From NCBI GenBank assembly GCA_022508505.1, contig JAFLVC010000006.1:1-64000 (forward strand): a DNA stretch of 64,000 bases, given 5' to 3'. The notes under the pieces are model-generated. The model saw nothing but the letters and a program-made list of their open reading frames with translations. It did not search any database and had not been told where the DNA came from. Both the position numbers and the translations under genes were made by a program. Below, in pieces: positions 1 through 7,504 of the stretch. Positions within the stretch are counted from its first letter, which is position 1. Each line of letters begins with the position of its first letter. This DNA is from Clostridiales bacterium. GTDB taxonomy: Bacteria; Bacillota; Clostridia; Christensenellales; Pumilibacteraceae.

Positions 1-105
1 TAGTAGCTCGTAAGTAGCTGATGAATTTCGACAAACAGTCCATGATTCCTCCACAAATGTATAATTATCTATCTTACAGTATACCAGATTAGGGTACAAA
101 GTACC

Positions 106-127
106 TTACAATAACTATTAATTATTT
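106..127 (+). repeat. Left copy of 22-bp inverted repeat bounding the AT-rich island
   Basis: These 22 bases are identical to the reverse complement of 5253-5274. This copy ends 18 bases before the ATG of the STAND NTPase; the other ends 11 bases before the start of the GNAT-SHMT gene on the opposite strand. The sequence contains an imperfect dyad (AATAA, 7-base spacer, TTATT). The position suggests a shared operator or 5' leader element; a recombination end is the alternative. Confidence 0.75.
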
Positions 128-145
128 AGAGATACTCAAATTCAT

Positions 146-2593
146 ATGGATATAATATACTCACATAAGTTTTATGATAGAAAGGATATTCTTGATTTAC
201 TACTGAAAAATACCCAAAATTTAGTTACAACCAATGATTATAAGAAAATTGTTGCGCTATGTGGCGTTTCTGGAAGTGGAAAAACAAGCATCCTAGATGA
301 GTATTTTCAAAGGTTGTATTCTGAAAAGCATTTTAAATATAAGGATTTCAATAAGCTTAAATTTTTTAAGATAAATCTTGAAGATCGATTCACGCCCGCA
401 AAAATACTCTATCGAATTCGAGAAAAAATTGATTTCAATTGTATACAATTTGATTATGCATTTCTTATATGGTGGAACAAGACGTCAAATATGTCAGTAA
501 TTGATAATTCTTATTATAATCACACCCAAAATGCACTTTTTGATGTTTTAGCATCAGCAGGTATTCCATATATTTCATCATTTTTTGGTTTATTAGATGT
601 TTGGAAAAAGCATAAACCTAAAATAAAAAGCTCATTCTTACTAAATGAAGATGAATATAATTTTTTAATAGAACTTGATAAGAAATCAGAAATAGAAGTA
701 CTGTTTAGCTTGCCAACATTATTAGGACGCGATATCAATAAAAAAATAGGCAAAAAGAACAAACTCGTTTTTCTTATTGATTCGTTTATTGAAAATATGA
801 ATAGAGAAAATCGAAAATGGGTATTAAAGTTTTTTGATGAAATTCCTAATATATTAATGATTATCACAAGTAAAGAGCGATTATCATTTGGCAATAAAAC
901 CCCGACTATTTTTGAACAGCACCAAATTGAAGGTTTGCCTGAGTCTTTTTCTGATGAAATGCTTTTAGATAGGATTAATAACTTATCACCCGAATCACGA
1001 AAAAAAATATTTAGCTTTACTGACGGTTTACCTAGATGCCTTGAGCTTGTAGTATCAAGTATAGAAAATGGTACTATGCAATTAGGTGAACAAGATATTT
1101 TCTGTGTAGAAAATATGGATGAATTTATTATTGCGGTGTTTAACCATCTATCTATACAATTAATTTCAACAATTAAGGCGTTAGCTATTATTAATGTATT
1201 TGACGAAGATACCGTATCATATTTTGCATTTAAAAAAGTAGAGCAATTATCTTTAGAAGAACGAAAAATATTCATGCAATCTAGTTTATTAAAGCACTGT
1301 GGGGAAAATCTTGCTCAGCAACCCACCTTTAAATTATTCGATATAGTCGCAAAGACGCTACAATACCAAATGGATCAAGATGAATTTGTATTGAATTTGC
1401 AGCTTTGTCGTGATTATATCTATAGTAGCTTCTATCGGTTATCAGCTGACACTAAGTTATCTATATTGTTGAATTTAGAAAAAAGCATAGAATTAAAACA
1501 TGATTTAATATCAAACATCGAAGTCATTGAACTGTTAATTGACATCTTTCTATTGTTTGTTGAATTTGGATATTACTCGGAAATATATGATTTTCTTAAA
1601 AATTCACTATCTAAGACTGATGAAGATAATGAGTTTTACAGTCTAATTGAGGGATTTTGTGTTTCTAAGTTATTTGGAAGCAATAAAGCGCTTAAATGCT
1701 ATTCACGCATTAAGCAAGAACAGCGAAAAAAATTCAAACGACATAATAAGACATTGGAATTATTAGAATCGTATTCAAATTCTTTGTGTGGTAATTATAA
1801 TAAGGCTTTGGTGAATTTTGAATCAATATACAAATCTCTACGTAAAGATGAGTTTGATTTTTGGTTTTATGCTAAGGCTAAGATTTATTATGCAGATATG
1901 TTAATATTAAAAGGAGATTTCAAAAAAGCGATTTCAATTTTTAATGAAATAAAAAATGAATTATATAATGCCGGCAATAAGTATTATGACTATTATGAAA
2001 TTGAAAAACAAATTGGGCATTGTTATAGATTTAACTTTTTATTAGATAAAGCAGAAAGTATTTATGAGAGTGGATATTTTGATACAAATAATAATTGTAT
2101 TATATCTTTAAGAAATTACTTTTTAACTACACTATTAGAAACTACGTGTTATTTTAATTTAAAAAAGTTTAAGCATTATATGCGACCGGCTTACAAATAC
2201 AATAAAATATCTGGTCATAAAAATAATATGGCAAAAATTCTTTATGCTAAAGGTATTTATAATATACATTTAAAACAATTCAAACAAAGCAAACGCTATA
2301 TTGCGCAATCTATTAAACTAAATGCCAAATCGAAATATATATCAGGGCAATTGTTCGGATATATTTCACTAGCCTATTTAGAATATGCAGAAAACGGAAT
2401 TATATCAAATGATACATTTACTTCAATTTTAGATATAATTGAGAAAATTAATGTTTATCGTTTTCTACTACTACCAATTTACATTATAAAAAATGATCTA
2501 AATAAAATTGCAGAGTTAAAAAGTCAATTTGATTGGTTAGATTTTGATGCTACTGTTTCAGCTATAAGTAATTTTGTTAAAAGATTGCGATAA
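146..2593 (+). CDS. STAND-type P-loop NTPase with TPR-like C-terminal half
   Basis: An 815-residue protein. It starts almost directly with the ATPase: Walker A GVSGSGKTS at residues 40-48, Walker B LVFLID ending at D212, a sensor-like IITSKER stretch near 240, and a GLP motif at 294-296, the order seen in STAND/NB-ARC signalling ATPases. The second half (about 480-800) is helical with aromatic-rich TPR-like spacing. No HTH, nuclease, TIR or protease effector domain is visible, so it may act as a sensor or switch for partner proteins, or as a regulator whose output domain is unrecognised. The gene is very AT-rich, unlike the chromosome further right. Its last 17 bases overlap tail-to-tail with the convergent dehydrogenase gene. 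There is no strong Shine-Dalgarno sequence (weak GAGA upstream). The family is clear; the role is not. Confidence 0.75.
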   Translation: MDIIYSHKFYDRKDILDLLLKNTQNLVTTNDYKKIVALCGVSGSGKTSILDEYFQRLYSEKHFKYKDFNKLKFFKINLEDRFTPAKILYRIREKIDFNCIQFDYAFLIWWNKTSNMSVIDNSYYNHTQNALFDVLASAGIPYISSFFGLLDVWKKHKPKIKSSFLLNEDEYNFLIELDKKSEIEVLFSLPTLLGRDINKKIGKKNKLVFLIDSFIENMNRENRKWVLKFFDEIPNILMIITSKERLSFGNKTPTIFEQHQIEGLPESFSDEMLLDRINNLSPESRKKIFSFTDGLPRCLELVVSSIENGTMQLGEQDIFCVENMDEFIIAVFNHLSIQLISTIKALAIINVFDEDTVSYFAFKKVEQLSLEERKIFMQSSLLKHCGENLAQQPTFKLFDIVAKTLQYQMDQDEFVLNLQLCRDYIYSSFYRLSADTKLSILLNLEKSIELKHDLISNIEVIELLIDIFLLFVEFGYYSEIYDFLKNSLSKTDEDNEFYSLIEGFCVSKLFGSNKALKCYSRIKQEQRKKFKRHNKTLELLESYSNSLCGNYNKALVNFESIYKSLRKDEFDFWFYAKAKIYYADMLILKGDFKKAISIFNEIKNELYNAGNKYYDYYEIEKQIGHCYRFNFLLDKAESIYESGYFDTNNNCIISLRNYFLTTLLETTCYFNLKKFKHYMRPAYKYNKISGHKNNMAKILYAKGIYNIHLKQFKQSKRYIAQSIKLNAKSKYISGQLFGYISLAYLEYAENGIISNDTFTSILDIIEKINVYRFLLLPIYIIKNDLNKIAELKSQFDWLDFDATVSAISNFVKRLR

Positions 2594-3551
2594 TTTGCTT
2601 ATTCGAATGAATATCTATCTTACTTTTAAATGCGTTGTTGATTTCGTTGAAAGGATGTGTAGAAATAAGATTATCAAATGTAGGAATCCAATAATCATCT
2701 ATTATTTTGGAAGCCGACTTTAAATTAGTTTTTTTACCATTGCGAAGTGGAAATGAAATATGAAGTTCATTCTTTAAAATATACTCATATATTTGCGAAG
2801 TATTTTCCCCATATAAGTGTGACATCGAGCATATTTTTTGACCTTTTTTACAGTTCTGTAAAACGCTAAGAAAGCCTTCCGTTGTATTCGTTGCTTCTAT
2901 AATAATATCGTAATGCTTATTTAAAGAATATTTTCCAATTTTAAAATTATCACATAAATTCTTTACTTTTTCATCGATTATATCATACACATCTATGTTG
3001 CTGCATTTTTTATAAAACTTCAAATAGAATGCCATTAATGTGCCTATGTTGCCAACTCCAAAAATAAGGATAGAACTTTTTGTTTCAATAGGTATATTTT
3101 CTAGTGCATGTATACAACATGATAAAGGTTCCGCAAGTGTACCTAGTATCAAACTCTTTGGCTTAGAAATAACAGTCAAATAAGAGTAGTGTATATCAGA
3201 AAATAGAGCAAACATACGGTTTGAGAAAAGACCTATATCATTCTTGTCACACAGATGAGATAGATTATGTTTGCAGTAATAACAAAGTCCACATCTATAG
3301 TTAAAATCCGTAATTACATAATCTCCTATACCAATATGTTCATTTTTAGATTCAATTACTTCAGCTATTCCTTCGTGCCCAAGACTTAGAGGATAATGAT
3401 TTCGTCTCCCAATATAACACGAGTAATCACTCCCACATATGCCACAATACAGATTACGAACTCTTACATAATCATTTTTAAGCTTACTTAGTTTAACATC
3501 TTTAAATATAAAAGAGCCAGGATTATTGAGAAAAGCAATTCTATTTATCAT
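2577..3551 (-). CDS. Zinc-dependent MDR-family alcohol/polyol dehydrogenase
   Basis: A 324-residue medium-chain dehydrogenase. The GroES-like N-terminal half has the catalytic zinc motif CGICGSD (C39) and GHE (H59, E60), plus four structural-zinc cysteines C87, C90, C93 and C101. The Rossmann half starts with GVGNIG at 165-170. These residues are intact, so it should be an active NAD(P)-dependent oxidoreductase, of the threonine/sorbitol dehydrogenase type; the substrate cannot be read. It lies 3' of the GNAT-SHMT fusion with an 11-base overlap, so the two are one operon and probably act on the same metabolite. It converges on the STAND gene. At about 324 residues it is slightly short for the family. 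Confidence 0.85.
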   Translation of the reverse strand: MINRIAFLNNPGSFIFKDVKLSKLKNDYVRVRNLYCGICGSDYSCYIGRRNHYPLSLGHEGIAEVIESKNEHIGIGDYVITDFNYRCGLCYYCKHNLSHLCDKNDIGLFSNRMFALFSDIHYSYLTVISKPKSLILGTLAEPLSCCIHALENIPIETKSSILIFGVGNIGTLMAFYLKFYKKCSNIDVYDIIDEKVKNLCDNFKIGKYSLNKHYDIIIEATNTTEGFLSVLQNCKKGQKICSMSHLYGENTSQIYEYILKNELHISFPLRNGKKTNLKSASKIIDDYWIPTFDNLISTHPFNEINNAFKSKIDIHSNKQIIAIF

Positions 3552-5241
3552 TTTTCTTGATCCTTCTTATTATATGTTTAACATAATCACAAGCCACTGG
3601 AACATCCTTATAGCACTTTGCAATAATGTCAGCGATATCAACGATATCTTCATCATTATGTAATCCCATACGTGTTGCGCCGGATAATCCTAATCTCAGT
3701 CCATACCCTAAATTATATGGCAATAAGCGATAATTAACATTTATATTTAATTTTTCAAGATTTAAAAAACACGAGAACGATTTATCTTGTGATGGGGTAT
3801 TTATCCAAATGTGGTGAGTCATTGGCTCTGAAAATTGCATGGATCTTTGGACGACTGGTACATTTCTTTGTAATAGAGCCGTTTCCAATTTAAATGTGTT
3901 TTGCAACATCAGTTGAGAATGCTGAATAAGGTCATCATAATGATTAAGCATTAATCCCGCGGTATATATATTGAATACATGCATGTTGGAAACAAATGTA
4001 CTAATATGAGATTTTAACATAAACCAATTATCATTTGTTTCCTTTGTTGCAATTAAAGCCATTTGTGGTCCTGGCAGGTTTTTATGTGTTGTTGATAAAA
4101 TCAGATCGAACCCCATGTCAAATGGATTAACATAATCTCCCGCGATTATATTTGTTAGATATTGTGATGCATCAAAGATTTTATATATGTCATCAGTGTT
4201 TTCTTTAATCCAGCTAAAATCTTCAAATATAAGCCCTTCACTTCTATCAATAAAAATGAATTTGGGCTTAAATTCTTCTATTAATTTTAGAGATGTAATT
4301 TTATTAATTCTGCGATTAGGAATGTCAATAGGAAGACACTTTACTTCCAATCCTAATCGTTCTAATATTTTCAATGTAGAATAATGTCCACCTGCTTCTT
4401 CTGGAAGCAATAACACACGATCTCCAATTTTAGCAATTGACATGAATAGAATTATATGAGCGTGCAAACCCGAAAGCAGGCGCATCGTTACACCTTTTGC
4501 CTTCAATAATAAAGCCCAGGCATCGTAAATCATATTAACATCTTTATTAATAGTATCTCTTCCTGAAAACTGTATTTTTGTATTGTACTTCTGCGAAGAA
4601 GTGCGAAAGGTGTCTGTATTATATAATCCATGTAAGAAAGAAGTAGCAGGATATAATGTGTCATCAAATGGAATATTTTCAACAGGGTTAAGGATTAGAG
4701 AATCGTTAAAGTGTACTTCTTGTTGCATGAGTGAGTTTCTAATAATTGAGCCGACTTTATAACAATTATCTTTTATATTTTTCAAATCTTTTTCGTAGAA
4801 TAATTGTGCTTGACTTTCTCGATATTTTTTTGTTTTCACGAAGCCCTCTTTTTCAAGTAAATGTTGACATGCTAATGCGCTTTCTGAAATGGCTGCTCTT
4901 AATTTTGAATACATGTTTTTTTGGGCAAAACTAATAGCTAAATATAATAAATTTAAACCTATTCCATTTCCACGAGAATTTTCAACAACGTAAAAGCGTT
5001 TTAATTCAGCTACTGTCTCTTCATATGTACGCAGAGCAAGTGTTCCAACAATTTTATCTTCGCTCATAACACACCAGAATGCAGTATTTGGATGTAAATA
5101 TATGTTATCAAAATTACTTTTTTCTAGTTCACTAAGCTCTATGTTGTTAATAAATCCGTTCTTTTTAATAATTTGTTCTTTTAAGAAATTTGCAATTAGA
5201 CTTAGTAACTTCTCATTTCCATCGTACAGAACTAAATTCAT
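3541..5241 (-). CDS. GNAT acetyltransferase fused to an SHMT-fold PLP enzyme
   Basis: A 566-residue two-domain protein. Residues 1-153 are a GNAT acyltransferase with the acetyl-CoA motif RGNGIG at 90-95. Residues about 160-566 have the serine hydroxymethyltransferase fold: LNPVEN at 184-189 corresponds to the SHMT substrate-loop glutamate, D357 to the PLP-pyridine aspartate, and STTHKNLPGP places the Schiff-base lysine at K387. The histidine that stacks on PLP in classical SHMT (DxxH) is replaced by Q360, which points away from housekeeping GlyA and towards an aldolase or threonine-transaldolase-like reaction. Inference: it forms or cleaves a beta-hydroxy amino acid that is also N-acylated, while the downstream dehydrogenase handles an aldehyde or ketone. 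GGAG precedes the ATG on the minus strand. Confidence 0.8.
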   Translation of the reverse strand: MNLVLYDGNEKLLSLIANFLKEQIIKKNGFINNIELSELEKSNFDNIYLHPNTAFWCVMSEDKIVGTLALRTYEETVAELKRFYVVENSRGNGIGLNLLYLAISFAQKNMYSKLRAAISESALACQHLLEKEGFVKTKKYRESQAQLFYEKDLKNIKDNCYKVGSIIRNSLMQQEVHFNDSLILNPVENIPFDDTLYPATSFLHGLYNTDTFRTSSQKYNTKIQFSGRDTINKDVNMIYDAWALLLKAKGVTMRLLSGLHAHIILFMSIAKIGDRVLLLPEEAGGHYSTLKILERLGLEVKCLPIDIPNRRINKITSLKLIEEFKPKFIFIDRSEGLIFEDFSWIKENTDDIYKIFDASQYLTNIIAGDYVNPFDMGFDLILSTTHKNLPGPQMALIATKETNDNWFMLKSHISTFVSNMHVFNIYTAGLMLNHYDDLIQHSQLMLQNTFKLETALLQRNVPVVQRSMQFSEPMTHHIWINTPSQDKSFSCFLNLEKLNINVNYRLLPYNLGYGLRLGLSGATRMGLHNDEDIVDIADIIAKCYKDVPVACDYVKHIIRRIKKNDK

Positions 5242-5252
5242 TATATTTCTCC

Positions 5253-5274
5253 AAATAATTAATAGTTATTGTAA
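5253..5274 (-). repeat. Right copy of 22-bp inverted repeat bounding the AT-rich island
   Basis: On the minus strand this reads the same 22 bases as 106-127 and is followed directly by GGAGAAATATA and the ATG of the GNAT-SHMT gene. The flanks do not match beyond the core, so this is a short conserved element rather than a long duplication. A minus-strand TATAAT lies upstream (complement of 5316-5321) without a good -35. Confidence 0.75.
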
Positions 5275-5388
5275 TGAAAAAAGCATAAGGGTTTCCATAT
5301 GGCAGAAGGAGAGGCATTATATAGTTGTGATGATTTAAAAGTATAGTATTTTCTCCGTAGTACTATGAAATCATATTGCATTAGCACA

Positions 5389-5417
5389 TTGACATAGCTA
5401 ATTTTTTTGTGTATACT
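5389..5417 (+). promoter_or_regulatory. Consensus sigma-A promoter with start site at the start codon
   Basis: TTGACA (5389-5394) and TATACT (5412-5417) are separated by exactly 17 bases. The expected transcription start, about 7 bases after the -10, coincides with the ATG at 5424. The transcript of the sigma-factor gene would then be leaderless or nearly so. Confidence 0.8.
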
Positions 5418-5423
5418 TATTAA

Positions 5424-5951
5424 ATGGCATACGATCCGAAGAACTATAACAAATTGATTACTAAGATACTAAATAGAGTAAAACATGGCAACACGGCGGC
5501 AATGACTGAGTTGTTTGACAAAACATACAATCATTTTTGCGGCATCGCGTTAGTTAAAATATGGGATAAGTCTAAAGCTGAGGATGCGGTAATGTCTATG
5601 TATGAGAATATAATGAAATACATAGAGTCGTTTGACGCAAAGAAGGGCGGTGTCGGCTGGATGTTCACGATTCTAAGCAGAATAATATATAATCTTAATG
5701 CAGAAGAACAAGCAGTTAAGCAATATGAACAGCCTATTATTGACAATAACAGTTTAGATGACATAAACTTGATGTACGAAACAATTGGATTATCTGACTT
5801 TGTATCTGAATTGGACGATGAAGATAGAAAAATGGTCTTTATGCTTTATTTCGAGCGAAGAACGCTGAGTGAAATTGCGGATATTTTGCGCTTAAGTACT
5901 TCGGCGGTACACAAGCGCAAACAGCAAATATTAAAAAAATTGAAAAGTTAG
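5424..5951 (+). CDS. ECF-like RNA polymerase sigma factor
   Basis: A 175-residue two-domain sigma factor. Region 2 (about 21-97) has the helical AEDAVMSMYENIMKYI segment and the aromatic WMFTILSRI segment expected for -10 recognition. Region 4 (about 128-173) ends in a helix-turn-helix, LSEIADILRLSTSAVHKR. There is no Shine-Dalgarno sequence upstream because the -10 box ends 6 bases before the ATG; region 2 starts soon after this ATG, so a much later start would damage the domain. It heads a three-gene unit with a secreted protein and an anti-sigma-like membrane protein, which suggests signalling from the envelope. The cognate promoter cannot be determined here. Confidence 0.85.
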   Translation: MAYDPKNYNKLITKILNRVKHGNTAAMTELFDKTYNHFCGIALVKIWDKSKAEDAVMSMYENIMKYIESFDAKKGGVGWMFTILSRIIYNLNAEEQAVKQYEQPIIDNNSLDDINLMYETIGLSDFVSELDDEDRKMVFMLYFERRTLSEIADILRLSTSAVHKRKQQILKKLKS

Positions 5952-6008
5952 TGATTGAGGTGGAAAGAACGGCTCATACATTACTATTTATATTGTAGGA
6001 GGTTTAAT

Positions 6009-6815
6009 ATGAAAAAAATCAAAAGCTTCATTTATGTGACGTTGGCTGTTTTAAGCCTTAGCCTGCTCGGCGCGTGGATGCCGACAAATGTCGTATCTGT
6101 TGAGGAACGATACGCAGACGTGCAAGTATATTCGCGGTATGCAACAGAAACGATTGATTTTGATGAAAAAAAGACGGATGCGAATATAAACAGCGCGCCG
6201 ATGTATACGGCAGTATCCGGCTTGACAAACGCTTGCGGCGCTGTAGCCGGCACCGAAGTTGTAGCATATTACGATAAGTATTATCCGGACATGATACCCG
6301 ATTGGGAATCATTCTATGCGGCAAGTGGGAAATACAGACCGCAAGACAAGGTTTATATTCCGAGCGTTATGACTGAGCTTTATACGCTCATGCACACAAA
6401 CATAGGAGGCGATGGCGTAAGCGACAGCGATTTCGTCAATGGGCTGACTCAATACATAAATGGTCGAGGATATGGCGTAAGTATGCAGAATGTGGTTAGC
6501 GGCTCAAGCATCGATTTTGCAGCTTGCAAAACTGCGATAGACAACAGCAAAGTAATCGCGTTGTTATCTCGCGCTACGGATGTATATATTTTAAGTGAGG
6601 GGGCAACGCAAGACGTCATAGTCCCGTCCACAATATCCGGATTGCACATCATGATAGCGCGAGGGTATCAGGAAAATAAATATTATAAGAACGGTACACT
6701 ATTTAGAACAGATAGGTATTTAATAGTTTCGACCGGACTGCAGGGCATTGGCACTGCTTGTTATAAGTTGAACAACCACAAATTAAACTACGCATATATT
6801 GTAAACATTGTATAG
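6009..6815 (+). CDS. Secreted C39-like (papain-fold) cysteine peptidase homologue
   Basis: A 268-residue protein starting at the ATG with AGGAGG 6 bases upstream; an in-frame upstream start at 5955 lacks such a site. The N-terminus is a signal peptide (KKIK followed by a hydrophobic stretch to about residue 22). The mature part has TNACGAVAGTEVVAYY with the putative nucleophile C76, and GLHIMIARGYQ with putative H213, the arrangement of C39-like peptidases. No ABC transporter is adjacent, so it is not a typical bacteriocin-leader processing system. It sits between the sigma-factor and anti-sigma-like genes and could be the regulated product or a protease in the signalling cascade. Family call moderate; activity untested. 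Confidence 0.65.
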   Translation: MKKIKSFIYVTLAVLSLSLLGAWMPTNVVSVEERYADVQVYSRYATETIDFDEKKTDANINSAPMYTAVSGLTNACGAVAGTEVVAYYDKYYPDMIPDWESFYAASGKYRPQDKVYIPSVMTELYTLMHTNIGGDGVSDSDFVNGLTQYINGRGYGVSMQNVVSGSSIDFAACKTAIDNSKVIALLSRATDVYILSEGATQDVIVPSTISGLHIMIARGYQENKYYKNGTLFRTDRYLIVSTGLQGIGTACYKLNNHKLNYAYIVNIV

Positions 6816-6823
6816 GGGATTTT

Positions 6824-7504
6824 ATGAAAGACATCGATATAGACAACATTATTGAAAGCGTCAATAGCGAAAAAAAAGAGGAGATGCGCGCACAATTACA
6901 CGCTCGGCTTGGCATGTCACAGAATGAAGAACCTCGGAAGAAAGATCGCAAACGGTTTTTCTCTCCCAAGGTGATTTCGTTTGGGATAGCGGGTCTGTGC
7001 GCCGTTTGCCTTGCAATAGTGTTGCCTATATCATTGCATAAAAGCGCATCGTCGCCGTCGTCAGCCAAATATACCTACAACGCGTCGGATTTTTCCGATG
7101 CGGATTTAGGCTTCACTATTAAGGATTACGCCGAACAGACCGGTAAAAATATATTATATATAGATTGGTACGACATAGCAGATGATTATATGACCACAAA
7201 ATATTTTCTGCCTAACAAAGTAAACGATATTATATATTTGTCCGAGGAGTTATATAACGGCGAGACGGGCGATCATGTTTGCCTTAGTGTTGTAAATACG
7301 AATACGAATGTAGACACTCTTGATTCCATAGAAAAAGCGTGCAATTTTCACTACACATACAATGACACGAATATCGGTTGGTCATACAGTTTGTCATTGT
7401 CAACAGCATATTTTGAATACGACGCATATAAGTACTACATCTTATTGTATGATCCGATAACAGAACAATCGATATTGGATATAGTCAAAAGCATGTTTAA
7501 ATAA
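6824..7504 (+). CDS. Anti-sigma-factor-like single-pass membrane protein
   Basis: A 226-residue protein: a charged N-terminal segment of about 48 residues (IDNIIESVNSEKKEEMRAQL), one membrane helix at about 50-72 (SFGIAGLCAVCLAIVLPI), and an external domain of about 150 residues with no recognised fold. This cytoplasmic-helix / membrane / external topology and the position third in the sigma-factor unit fit an anti-sigma regulator. No zinc-binding HxxxCxxC motif is present, so it is not a ZAS-type anti-sigma factor. It begins 8 bases after the peptidase-like gene behind GGGGA. Function is inferred from context. Confidence 0.6.
   Translation: MKDIDIDNIIESVNSEKKEEMRAQLHARLGMSQNEEPRKKDRKRFFSPKVISFGIAGLCAVCLAIVLPISLHKSASSPSSAKYTYNASDFSDADLGFTIKDYAEQTGKNILYIDWYDIADDYMTTKYFLPNKVNDIIYLSEELYNGETGDHVCLSVVNTNTNVDTLDSIEKACNFHYTYNDTNIGWSYSLSLSTAYFEYDAYKYYILLYDPITEQSILDIVKSMFK

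Follow-up and report, generated by a model that had tools for sequence, protein, structure and literature searches.

Inversion is a familiar means of phase variation, above all in surface antigens and restriction specificity. The available excerpt of PMC11868660 covers both, together with inversion at the Moraxella pilin locus, and PMC12529663 has titles on the invertible segment of phage P1 among its references. For the mba/UU376 and UU172/UU171 pairs of Ureaplasma, the accessible part of PMC3047005 reports that two genes facing each other, with short inverted repeats and a single potential promoter, invert and are expressed in alternation, and it proposes tyrosine recombinases for the inversions; PMC3599477 is a further record on this system. 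A survey of gut invertons, likewise accessible in part, lists inverted repeats linked to recombinases in Clostridia and Bacteroidia of the gut, at cell-surface and hsdS genes (PMC11892184). Here we analyse the first 64,000 nucleotides (nt) of contig JAFLVC010000006.1 from a Clostridiales bacterium (assembly GCA_022508505.1), hereafter the window, in which a gene for a STAND-type NTPase faces genes for a GNAT–SHMT fusion protein and a dehydrogenase between two inverted copies of a 22-base-pair (bp) element. These repeats are very probably the crossover sites of a segment inverted by an Xer-like tyrosine recombinase, and the left arm alone would lie behind a fixed promoter. We hold with high confidence that inversion is the purpose of the repeats, and the two arms are likely to be expressed in alternation.

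The two copies of the element, at 106–127 and 5253–5274, are exact reverse complements lying 18 nt before the ATG at 146 and 11 nt before the ATG at 5241, as the initial annotation had stated, and the inverted repeat extends to 27 nt at 96% identity (106–132 and 5248–5274). At up to 3 mismatches the window holds these 2 copies only, and 0 of 100 dinucleotide shuffles gave any; the pair is far beyond chance. The GC fraction is 0.25–0.33 across positions 1–6000 compared with 0.48–0.59 past 15 kb, which bears out the earlier description of an AT-rich island. The element appears to be kept by selection and contains a dyad, again as first proposed, and the gene calls hold: a STAND-like protein on one side, a GNAT–SHMT protein plus a zinc dehydrogenase on the other. 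Matches of the STAND-like protein to AAA_22 (E 1.3e-4) and to TPR_2 (E 0.003) fall short of the Pfam cut-off, and that to AAA_14 is weak; the motif TTHKNLPGP in the GNAT–SHMT protein is presumably that of the pyridoxal phosphate (PLP) lysine. The dehydrogenase and STAND genes overlap tail-to-tail by 17 nt.

The same genome carries a second module, which supplies both the recombinase and an alternative junction. Window positions 1–35 are identical to positions 4712–4746 of this second locus (L006), the start of the recombinase gene C22:121866–122753, and positions 1–127 are 94% identical to C22:122711–122836. Module 2 sits at the far end of the window's own contig, C22. Its 38-nt repeat flanks a 1,076-residue (aa) Mrr-STAND protein facing a 556-aa carbamoyltransferase, and its 296-aa recombinase (Phage_integrase E 1.4e-35) adjoins the left repeat and reads away. 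At up to 3 mismatches the genome contains five copies of the 22-mer: the window pair, C22:122815, C22:127746 and C12:42, the last three sharing two identical central changes. These are the four ends of two modules and one extra junction, and the 22-mer is thus not spread over unrelated promoters. At the extra junction, C12 opens with 65 nt that correspond, in reverse, to the Mrr-STAND start and the repeat, after which comes the right flank of module 2; on C22 that same flank is joined to the carbamoyltransferase start (C22 and C12 share 121 nt). Both junction types of module 2 therefore occur within one draft assembly of 25 contigs, which is the expected product of inversion between its repeats. 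On C12, in the right flank of module 2, a gene at 177–2105 of L007 encodes a 642-aa TIR and SLOG protein (LD_cluster2, weakly ThsB-like); pointing away from the right site, it places one more defence-type gene beside the module.

We considered and rejected the identity of the recombinase with the chromosomal XerC or XerD: the module 2 enzyme falls below the NCBIfam equivalog cut-offs (XerC, 226.2 of 335.15 bits; XerD, 208.6 of 329.6), and matches at E <= 1e-40 occur in 10 of 74 family genomes, its own included. In an alignment of eight recombinases (A1; 72–84% identical to the first), R148, K172, H240, R243, H266 and Y275, which we take to be the catalytic residues, are invariant. A scan of one genome per species for relatives of the recombinase retained 80 loci of 126, mostly in uncultured Clostridia or Clostridiales, with some in Bacilli, Erysipelotrichales and Acholeplasmatales. 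An exact inverted pair lies beside the recombinase in 22 of the 80. Searching 396 genomes of the order for the site pattern at up to 3 mismatches gave matches in 34, and a reversed control also matched 20; single matches are therefore mostly not evidence, and only opposed pairs were counted as modules (one each in G001, G413, G214 and G259). These four, the 22 exact-pair loci, the window, L006 and a module in G211 make up the 29 modules considered below. Related modules were counted separately in the promoter, core and overlap counts, which are uncorrected for shared ancestry.

The G211 module was found without use of site or recombinase. Searching the same 396 genomes with the window GNAT–SHMT protein alone (E <= 1e-30) returned this one other genome (40% identity). 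Its GNAT–SHMT gene belongs to a module that has a site pair of its own (shared core ATTG), and it is opposed by a gene for a 790-aa protein with a hydrophobic start, with which it overlaps by 17 nt. A check on homologues of the window genes, which the initial annotation had suggested, thus turns out in part as anticipated: the only other GNAT–SHMT gene found in that search has its own site pair, and the opposing gene has no similarity to the window STAND gene, nor any to the window dehydrogenase beyond chance. The G211 recombinase is encoded elsewhere in that genome (C15:6861, E 8e-152). Recombinases also lie away from the module in G413, G214 and G140, and the enzyme therefore probably also works at a distance.

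The sites commonly take the form AATAACT–4 nt–ATTATT, and at some loci they fall within a palindrome, for example CTTACAATAA–7 nt–TTATTGTAAG in L106. Core and promoter tests used 75 of the 80 loci (L038, L064, L087, L105 and L111, with less than 65 nt upstream, were omitted). A left site was found in 53 of the 75 upstream regions of relatives, or 55 with the window and L006. With the 4-nt core masked in the search for a right partner, some right-hand match turned up in 31 of 77 regions. In 24 of these 31 the top-ranking partner, alone or in a tie, shared the core of the left site, as it did in 20 of 20 at no more than one mismatch, window included. The seven partners with a different core all had 2–3 mismatches; L110 is an ambiguous case, since its left site itself has 2 mismatches, and in L052 a chance match with another core tied. 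Among 28 modules there are 21 distinct cores, and a core that is the same within pairs and varies between modules is what would be expected of strand-exchange cores. Because the 22 exact-repeat modules were chosen by their exact repeats, core identity there is partly by construction and the masked test is the fair one. In G015, the two arms of a small module with a spermine-synthase-like protein (the pairing of L142, below) are on separate contigs (L022 and L150), each beside a site with core TAGG.

These results bear on the first interpretation of the element, that it ties the convergent genes into one co-regulated module. The genes are indeed tied into a module. Co-regulation by a shared operator, at which one regulator would act on two promoters, would account for the dyad symmetry and for an exact copy lying shortly before each gene, yet an operator does not demand a centre that varies between modules and matches within pairs, as strand exchange does. 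The repeat moreover extends over the ribosome-binding site, at times taking in the start codon as well, a recombinase adjoins it, and both junction types exist for module 2. We regard the operator as highly improbable, the evidence favouring alternating arms.

Contig ends and cargo orientation are also consistent with inversion. Of the 80 loci, 31 have a contig end within 350 nt upstream of the recombinase, on the site side, and 5 have one downstream, an excess expected if assemblers meet a fork there. Homologous cargo occurs in either orientation in separate genomes. Among modules pairing the SIR2-STALD protein ThsA with a TIR protein (Thoeris), ThsA is on the left in L047, L052, L066 and L084 and TIR in L070. 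Where an SHMT-type enzyme faces an AAA-membrane protein, the latter is on the left in L040 and L100 and SHMT in L106. ATP-grasp proteins and their 560-aa partners divide evenly, with the 560-aa protein on the left in L045 and L089 and ATP-grasp in L086 and L091. Over the 24 recombinase-adjacent modules, the enzyme arm, which we distinguished from the answering arm by Pfam matches and similarity clusters, is on the left in 9, on the right in 14 and not assigned in 1 (L094). The C12/C22 junction could in principle be an assembly artefact and the repeats merely conserved leaders: the draft genome comprises 25 contigs, and short repeats such as the 38-nt repeat of module 2 can mislead assemblers. 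Such an error would leave the clustering of contig breaks and the two orientations in separate genomes to be accounted for, and a conserved leader would need no pair-private core; we consider this explanation very unlikely.

The initial annotation had also suggested that the element marks the ends of a mobile cassette. Relatives do have the right flank without the module, and near the same sigma-factor operon G014 and the window carry different cargo, as terminal inverted repeats of a transposon might produce. However, the recombinase lies outside the repeats, the gene list for the insert between them includes no transposase, and the repeat occupies the position of a 5' leader. The homology of the relatives breaks 115, 130 and 233 nt outside the repeat with no clean empty site. 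Relatives of the recombinase reach only 36% identity on viral contigs (7 loci, 25–36%) and at most 42% on plasmids (8 records at E <= 1e-40). A mobile cassette is accordingly a highly improbable account of the repeats.

If the repeats are crossover sites, a promoter fixed outside one of them would select the arm. A strong sigma-A promoter lies ahead of the left site at 29 of 55 loci, as against 2.9 in shuffles; one example reads TTGAAA–17–TATAAT with TG before the -10. In these 29 promoters the -10 begins 13–15 nt before the core in 23, 24–26 nt in 5 and 81 nt in 1 (L053). Within 200 nt outside the sites of the 24 paired modules, promoters scoring at least 10 numbered 9 on the left and 2 on the right (expected, 1.8 and 2.0), and the best match within 60 nt averaged 9.4 on the left versus 8.3 on the right (one-sided P 0.006). 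The exact repeat often spans the ribosome-binding site, reaching the start codon in L039, L040 and L066, and the transcript leader would thus be mostly repeat and much alike for both arms. In L086, L089, L091, L096 and L100, an inverted repeat (CTCCTCGAAATT ... AATTTCGGGGAG) between the recombinase start and the site could be a terminator or an operator; leaders in this subgroup are mostly longer, about 65–90 nt.

The opposing frames also meet in an unusual way. They overlap at their tails by 4–33 nt in 26 of 28 modules, the other two being 9 nt apart, and with G211 the overlap is found in 27 of 29. Among convergent pairs outside modules, 7 of 119 overlap by 1–40 nt and 13 of 119 at all (Fisher, 2.7e-20). 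With overlapping tails, and with 0 terminator-like sites across window positions 1–6000, the transcript of one arm should run antisense into the other.

From these observations we propose that the tyrosine recombinase whose gene adjoins the left site on its outer side would invert the segment between the repeats, catalysis presumably being its own. A fixed promoter in the short gap from the recombinase gene to the left site would read into the segment through the repeat, which would form the 5' leader, with the crossover core first and the ribosome-binding site after it, joined in some modules by the start codon. The arm on the left would be transcribed and translated, and the far-side arm, reading inward with no recognisable promoter above chance, would be off. 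By way of the overlapping stop codons, the active-arm transcript would also be antisense to the silent arm and may act on it as such. Inversion would swap the arms. In the window as assembled, the STAND NTPase on the left would be on and the GNAT–SHMT and dehydrogenase genes on the right off, and the window copy may itself switch.

The cargo of the modules, gene pairs resembling the halves of immune or conflict systems, suggests a possible immune role. An ATP-grasp type protein occurs in 12 modules (a single-linkage cluster of 11 and L036, E 4e-6); of the cluster, two members were scanned, L143 matching Dala_Dala_lig_C (E 4e-31) and L045 ATP-grasp_3 (E 0.005). SHMT-type enzymes occur in 7, a cluster of six (window and L144 scanned) plus G211. 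Carbamoyltransferase (L006), a spermine synthase-like protein (L142) and glycosyltransferase are found in one module each; L094 carries a small P-loop protein with TIR, and L145 pairs TIR and PNP-STALD against SLOG-TIR, a Thoeris-like arrangement. The arm opposite the enzyme is often STAND, TPR or TIR-STAND, several of the matches being below the Pfam cut-off, and among the opposite arms scanned, which cover part of the modules, the partners in L039, L051, L077 and L142 gave no Pfam match. Modules L047 and L089 contain extra genes or fragments. The L142 module (G001:C3:243021–244764) is small, and its spermine-synthase-like protein accompanies an unknown 283-aa protein; a recombinase is encoded at 116915–117796 of the same contig. 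In L045, L086, L089 and L091, a 560–568-aa family is paired with an ATP-grasp type protein in 4 of 4 cases and is a candidate effector; it has no firm Pfam match and one weak TnsA-like match (E 0.007).

Five modules (L066, L070, L084, L047 and L052; the window not among them) carry ThsA and TIR, and 24 of the 29 carry other pairs. In L066, L070 and L084, ThsA has SIR2 and STALD domains and a TIR partner (PADLOC ThsA E down to 1.4e-142); in L047 and L052 the ThsA E-values are 2.3e-59 and 8.3e-58, with TIR over the Pfam cut-off in L052 and below it in L047. These invertible modules all came from the recombinase scan. Of the 396 order genomes, 5 have ThsA at E <= 1e-40, and the ThsA loci fetched contained no site pair; G255 has one site outside its Thoeris operon, and G236 one palindromic chance match inside ThsA. 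In three of these five (G108, G236 and G255), a TIR-like gene precedes thsA colinearly by our reading of the open reading frames, and the ordinary Thoeris layout thus exists too. L047 (G437:C92) also has ThsA-like fragments next to its Thoeris arms; one of them contains stop codons, and they may be what is left of a decayed duplicate. A further opposed ThsA/TIR pair is present in that genome at G437:C233.

Several observations weigh against an inversion that places one arm alone behind a fixed promoter. Of the 55 left sites, 26 gave no recognised promoter, and a left site was not found within the limits in 22 of 75 upstream regions of relatives. Relaxing the promoter score to at least 9 leaves little difference between the left and right sides of the 24 paired modules (10 and 7; expected, 4.7 and 6.5). 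In the window and L006 the place of the promoter is kept with weak hexamers (4/6 and 4/6, spacing 16), and the window candidate is absent from the list of a simple promoter scan; nor is the window one of the 29 loci with a strong promoter. The recombinase of the window module is assembled for its first 43 nt only, the inverted junction of that module was not found in its own assembly, and G259 has a module, yet no recombinase was found in that genome at E <= 1e-25. Finally, Thoeris protection requires both ThsA and ThsB, according to the accessible part of PMC7272460; with both proteins needed in one cell, strict alternation would forbid it.

This last point speaks for a different view, in which the segment inverts while both arms are transcribed either way, from promoters on both sides or in the repeat, so that inversion alters level or pairing and not the choice of gene. 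The L066 and L070 genomes each contain one ThsA and one TIR_2 match, all in the module, although absence elsewhere means little in drafts. The right flank of the window has a 9/12 promoter match that uses the repeat's own TACAAT, and right-flank promoters are present in 7 of 24 modules at the lax threshold. That number equals the shuffles, however (7 versus 6.5, and 2 versus 2.0 at the stricter score), and tail overlap without a terminator predicts interference between the arms. We judge transcription of both arms to be unlikely, while giving it appreciable weight. For Thoeris, strict alternation poses a problem: either both arms might be expressed to some degree, or the full system would exist only in recently flipped or mixed-orientation cells, or its halves would act between cells. 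Alternation from a fixed promoter remains the reading we prefer, and the features to which it applies in the window are collected in Table 1.

Table 1. Features of the invertible module and its flanks in the window (positions are those of the 64,000-nt stretch).
Feature	Position	Strand	Details
Recombinase start, first 14 codons (Xer-like tyrosine recombinase)	1–43	-	Start codon 43–41; truncated by contig start
Divergent promoter region, recombinase / left site	44–105		Gap between both
Candidate cargo promoter, weak	CTTACA 73–78, 16 nt, TACAAA 95–100	+	4/6 + 4/6 matches
Candidate recombinase -10	TATACT at 83–78	-	TG in front; read by eye
Left crossover site (putative)	106–127	+	Arms AATAACT / ATTATT; 4-nt core ATTA 117–120
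Remaining leader, weak ribosome-binding site AGAGA	128–145	+	Ahead of ATG 146
Left arm: STAND-type NTPase, 815 aa	146–2593	+	Walker A GVSGSGKT; C-terminal TPR-like
Right arm gene 2: zinc-dependent medium-chain dehydrogenase, 324 aa	2577–3551	-	ADH_N E 7.7e-14
Right arm gene 1: fusion of a GNAT acetyltransferase with an SHMT-like PLP enzyme, 566 aa	3541–5241	-	Acetyltransf_1 4.9e-11, SHMT 1.3e-9
Right crossover site (putative)	5253–5274	-	Core ATTA as on left; then GGAGA ribosome-binding site towards gene
Right flank	5275–5423		DNA homology of module-free relatives begins 5389 (L170), 5404 (L169), 5507 (L171)

Beyond the right flank, positions 5424–7504 hold an operon that encodes an ECF-type sigma factor together with two proteins lacking any Pfam match. 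It is present whole or in part in relatives of the same genus (L146, L149 and L169–L173), and similar-looking sigma-factor operons adjoin sites in G010:C30 and G015:C56. From 15000 to 64000 the GC fraction rises abruptly to about 0.55, and the AT skew is often above 0.15 across nearly 50 kb.

More tentatively, the modules may exemplify a general layout in Clostridia, in which a signal-making enzyme and an answering protein occupy opposite arms of a one-promoter invertible segment and one chromosome could express only one of them; we think it rather doubtful that this holds in general. The makers could be the TIR, ATP-grasp, SHMT-like, carbamoyltransferase and spermine synthase-like proteins, and the responders SIR2-STALD, STAND and TIR-STAND. 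If so, the complete system would exist only in just-flipped cells, in cells with chromosome copies of mixed orientation, or between maker and responder cells. Should the halves really alternate, a recombinase would determine when, or between which cells, immunity exists, making it transient or shared; this would be a new way of controlling costly abortive defences. The layout, with its shared leader repeat and opposed overlapping genes, would also offer a search key for unknown two-part systems.

Among described systems, Ureaplasma shares opposed genes and short inverted repeats with the modules described here; one promoter, alternating expression and a tyrosine recombinase would be further common ground. 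There, as far as the accessible part of the source goes, one repeat lies within the 5' part of a gene and surface-protein fusions result, whereas modules of the window type have a leader-embedded site, would swap whole unrelated genes, have overlapping tails and carry STAND, SIR2 or TIR proteins with enzymes. At the Moraxella pilin locus and in phages Mu and P1, inversion decides, as proposed here, which of two genes or sets of genes follows a fixed start. Those three systems use other recombinase families and switch variants of one function, not two different proteins. Gut invertons of the PhaseFinder type have recombinase-linked inverted repeats in common with our modules and differ in cargo, which in the accessible text of PMC11892184 is cell-surface and hsdS genes; the terms defense, phage and Thoeris occur 0 times there. 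Neither an invertible Thoeris nor a one-promoter inversion of two-part defence pairs was among the literature matches listed, which are mainly open-access papers. The five recombinase-adjacent modules with ThsA and TIR resemble Thoeris in their SIR2-STALD ThsA and TIR protein, and differ in placing these on opposed arms of a probably invertible segment, in contrast to the colinear TIR–thsA order of G108, G236 and G255. Gene-swapping inversion is already known; its use on two-part immune systems is, as judged by the matches listed, the new part.

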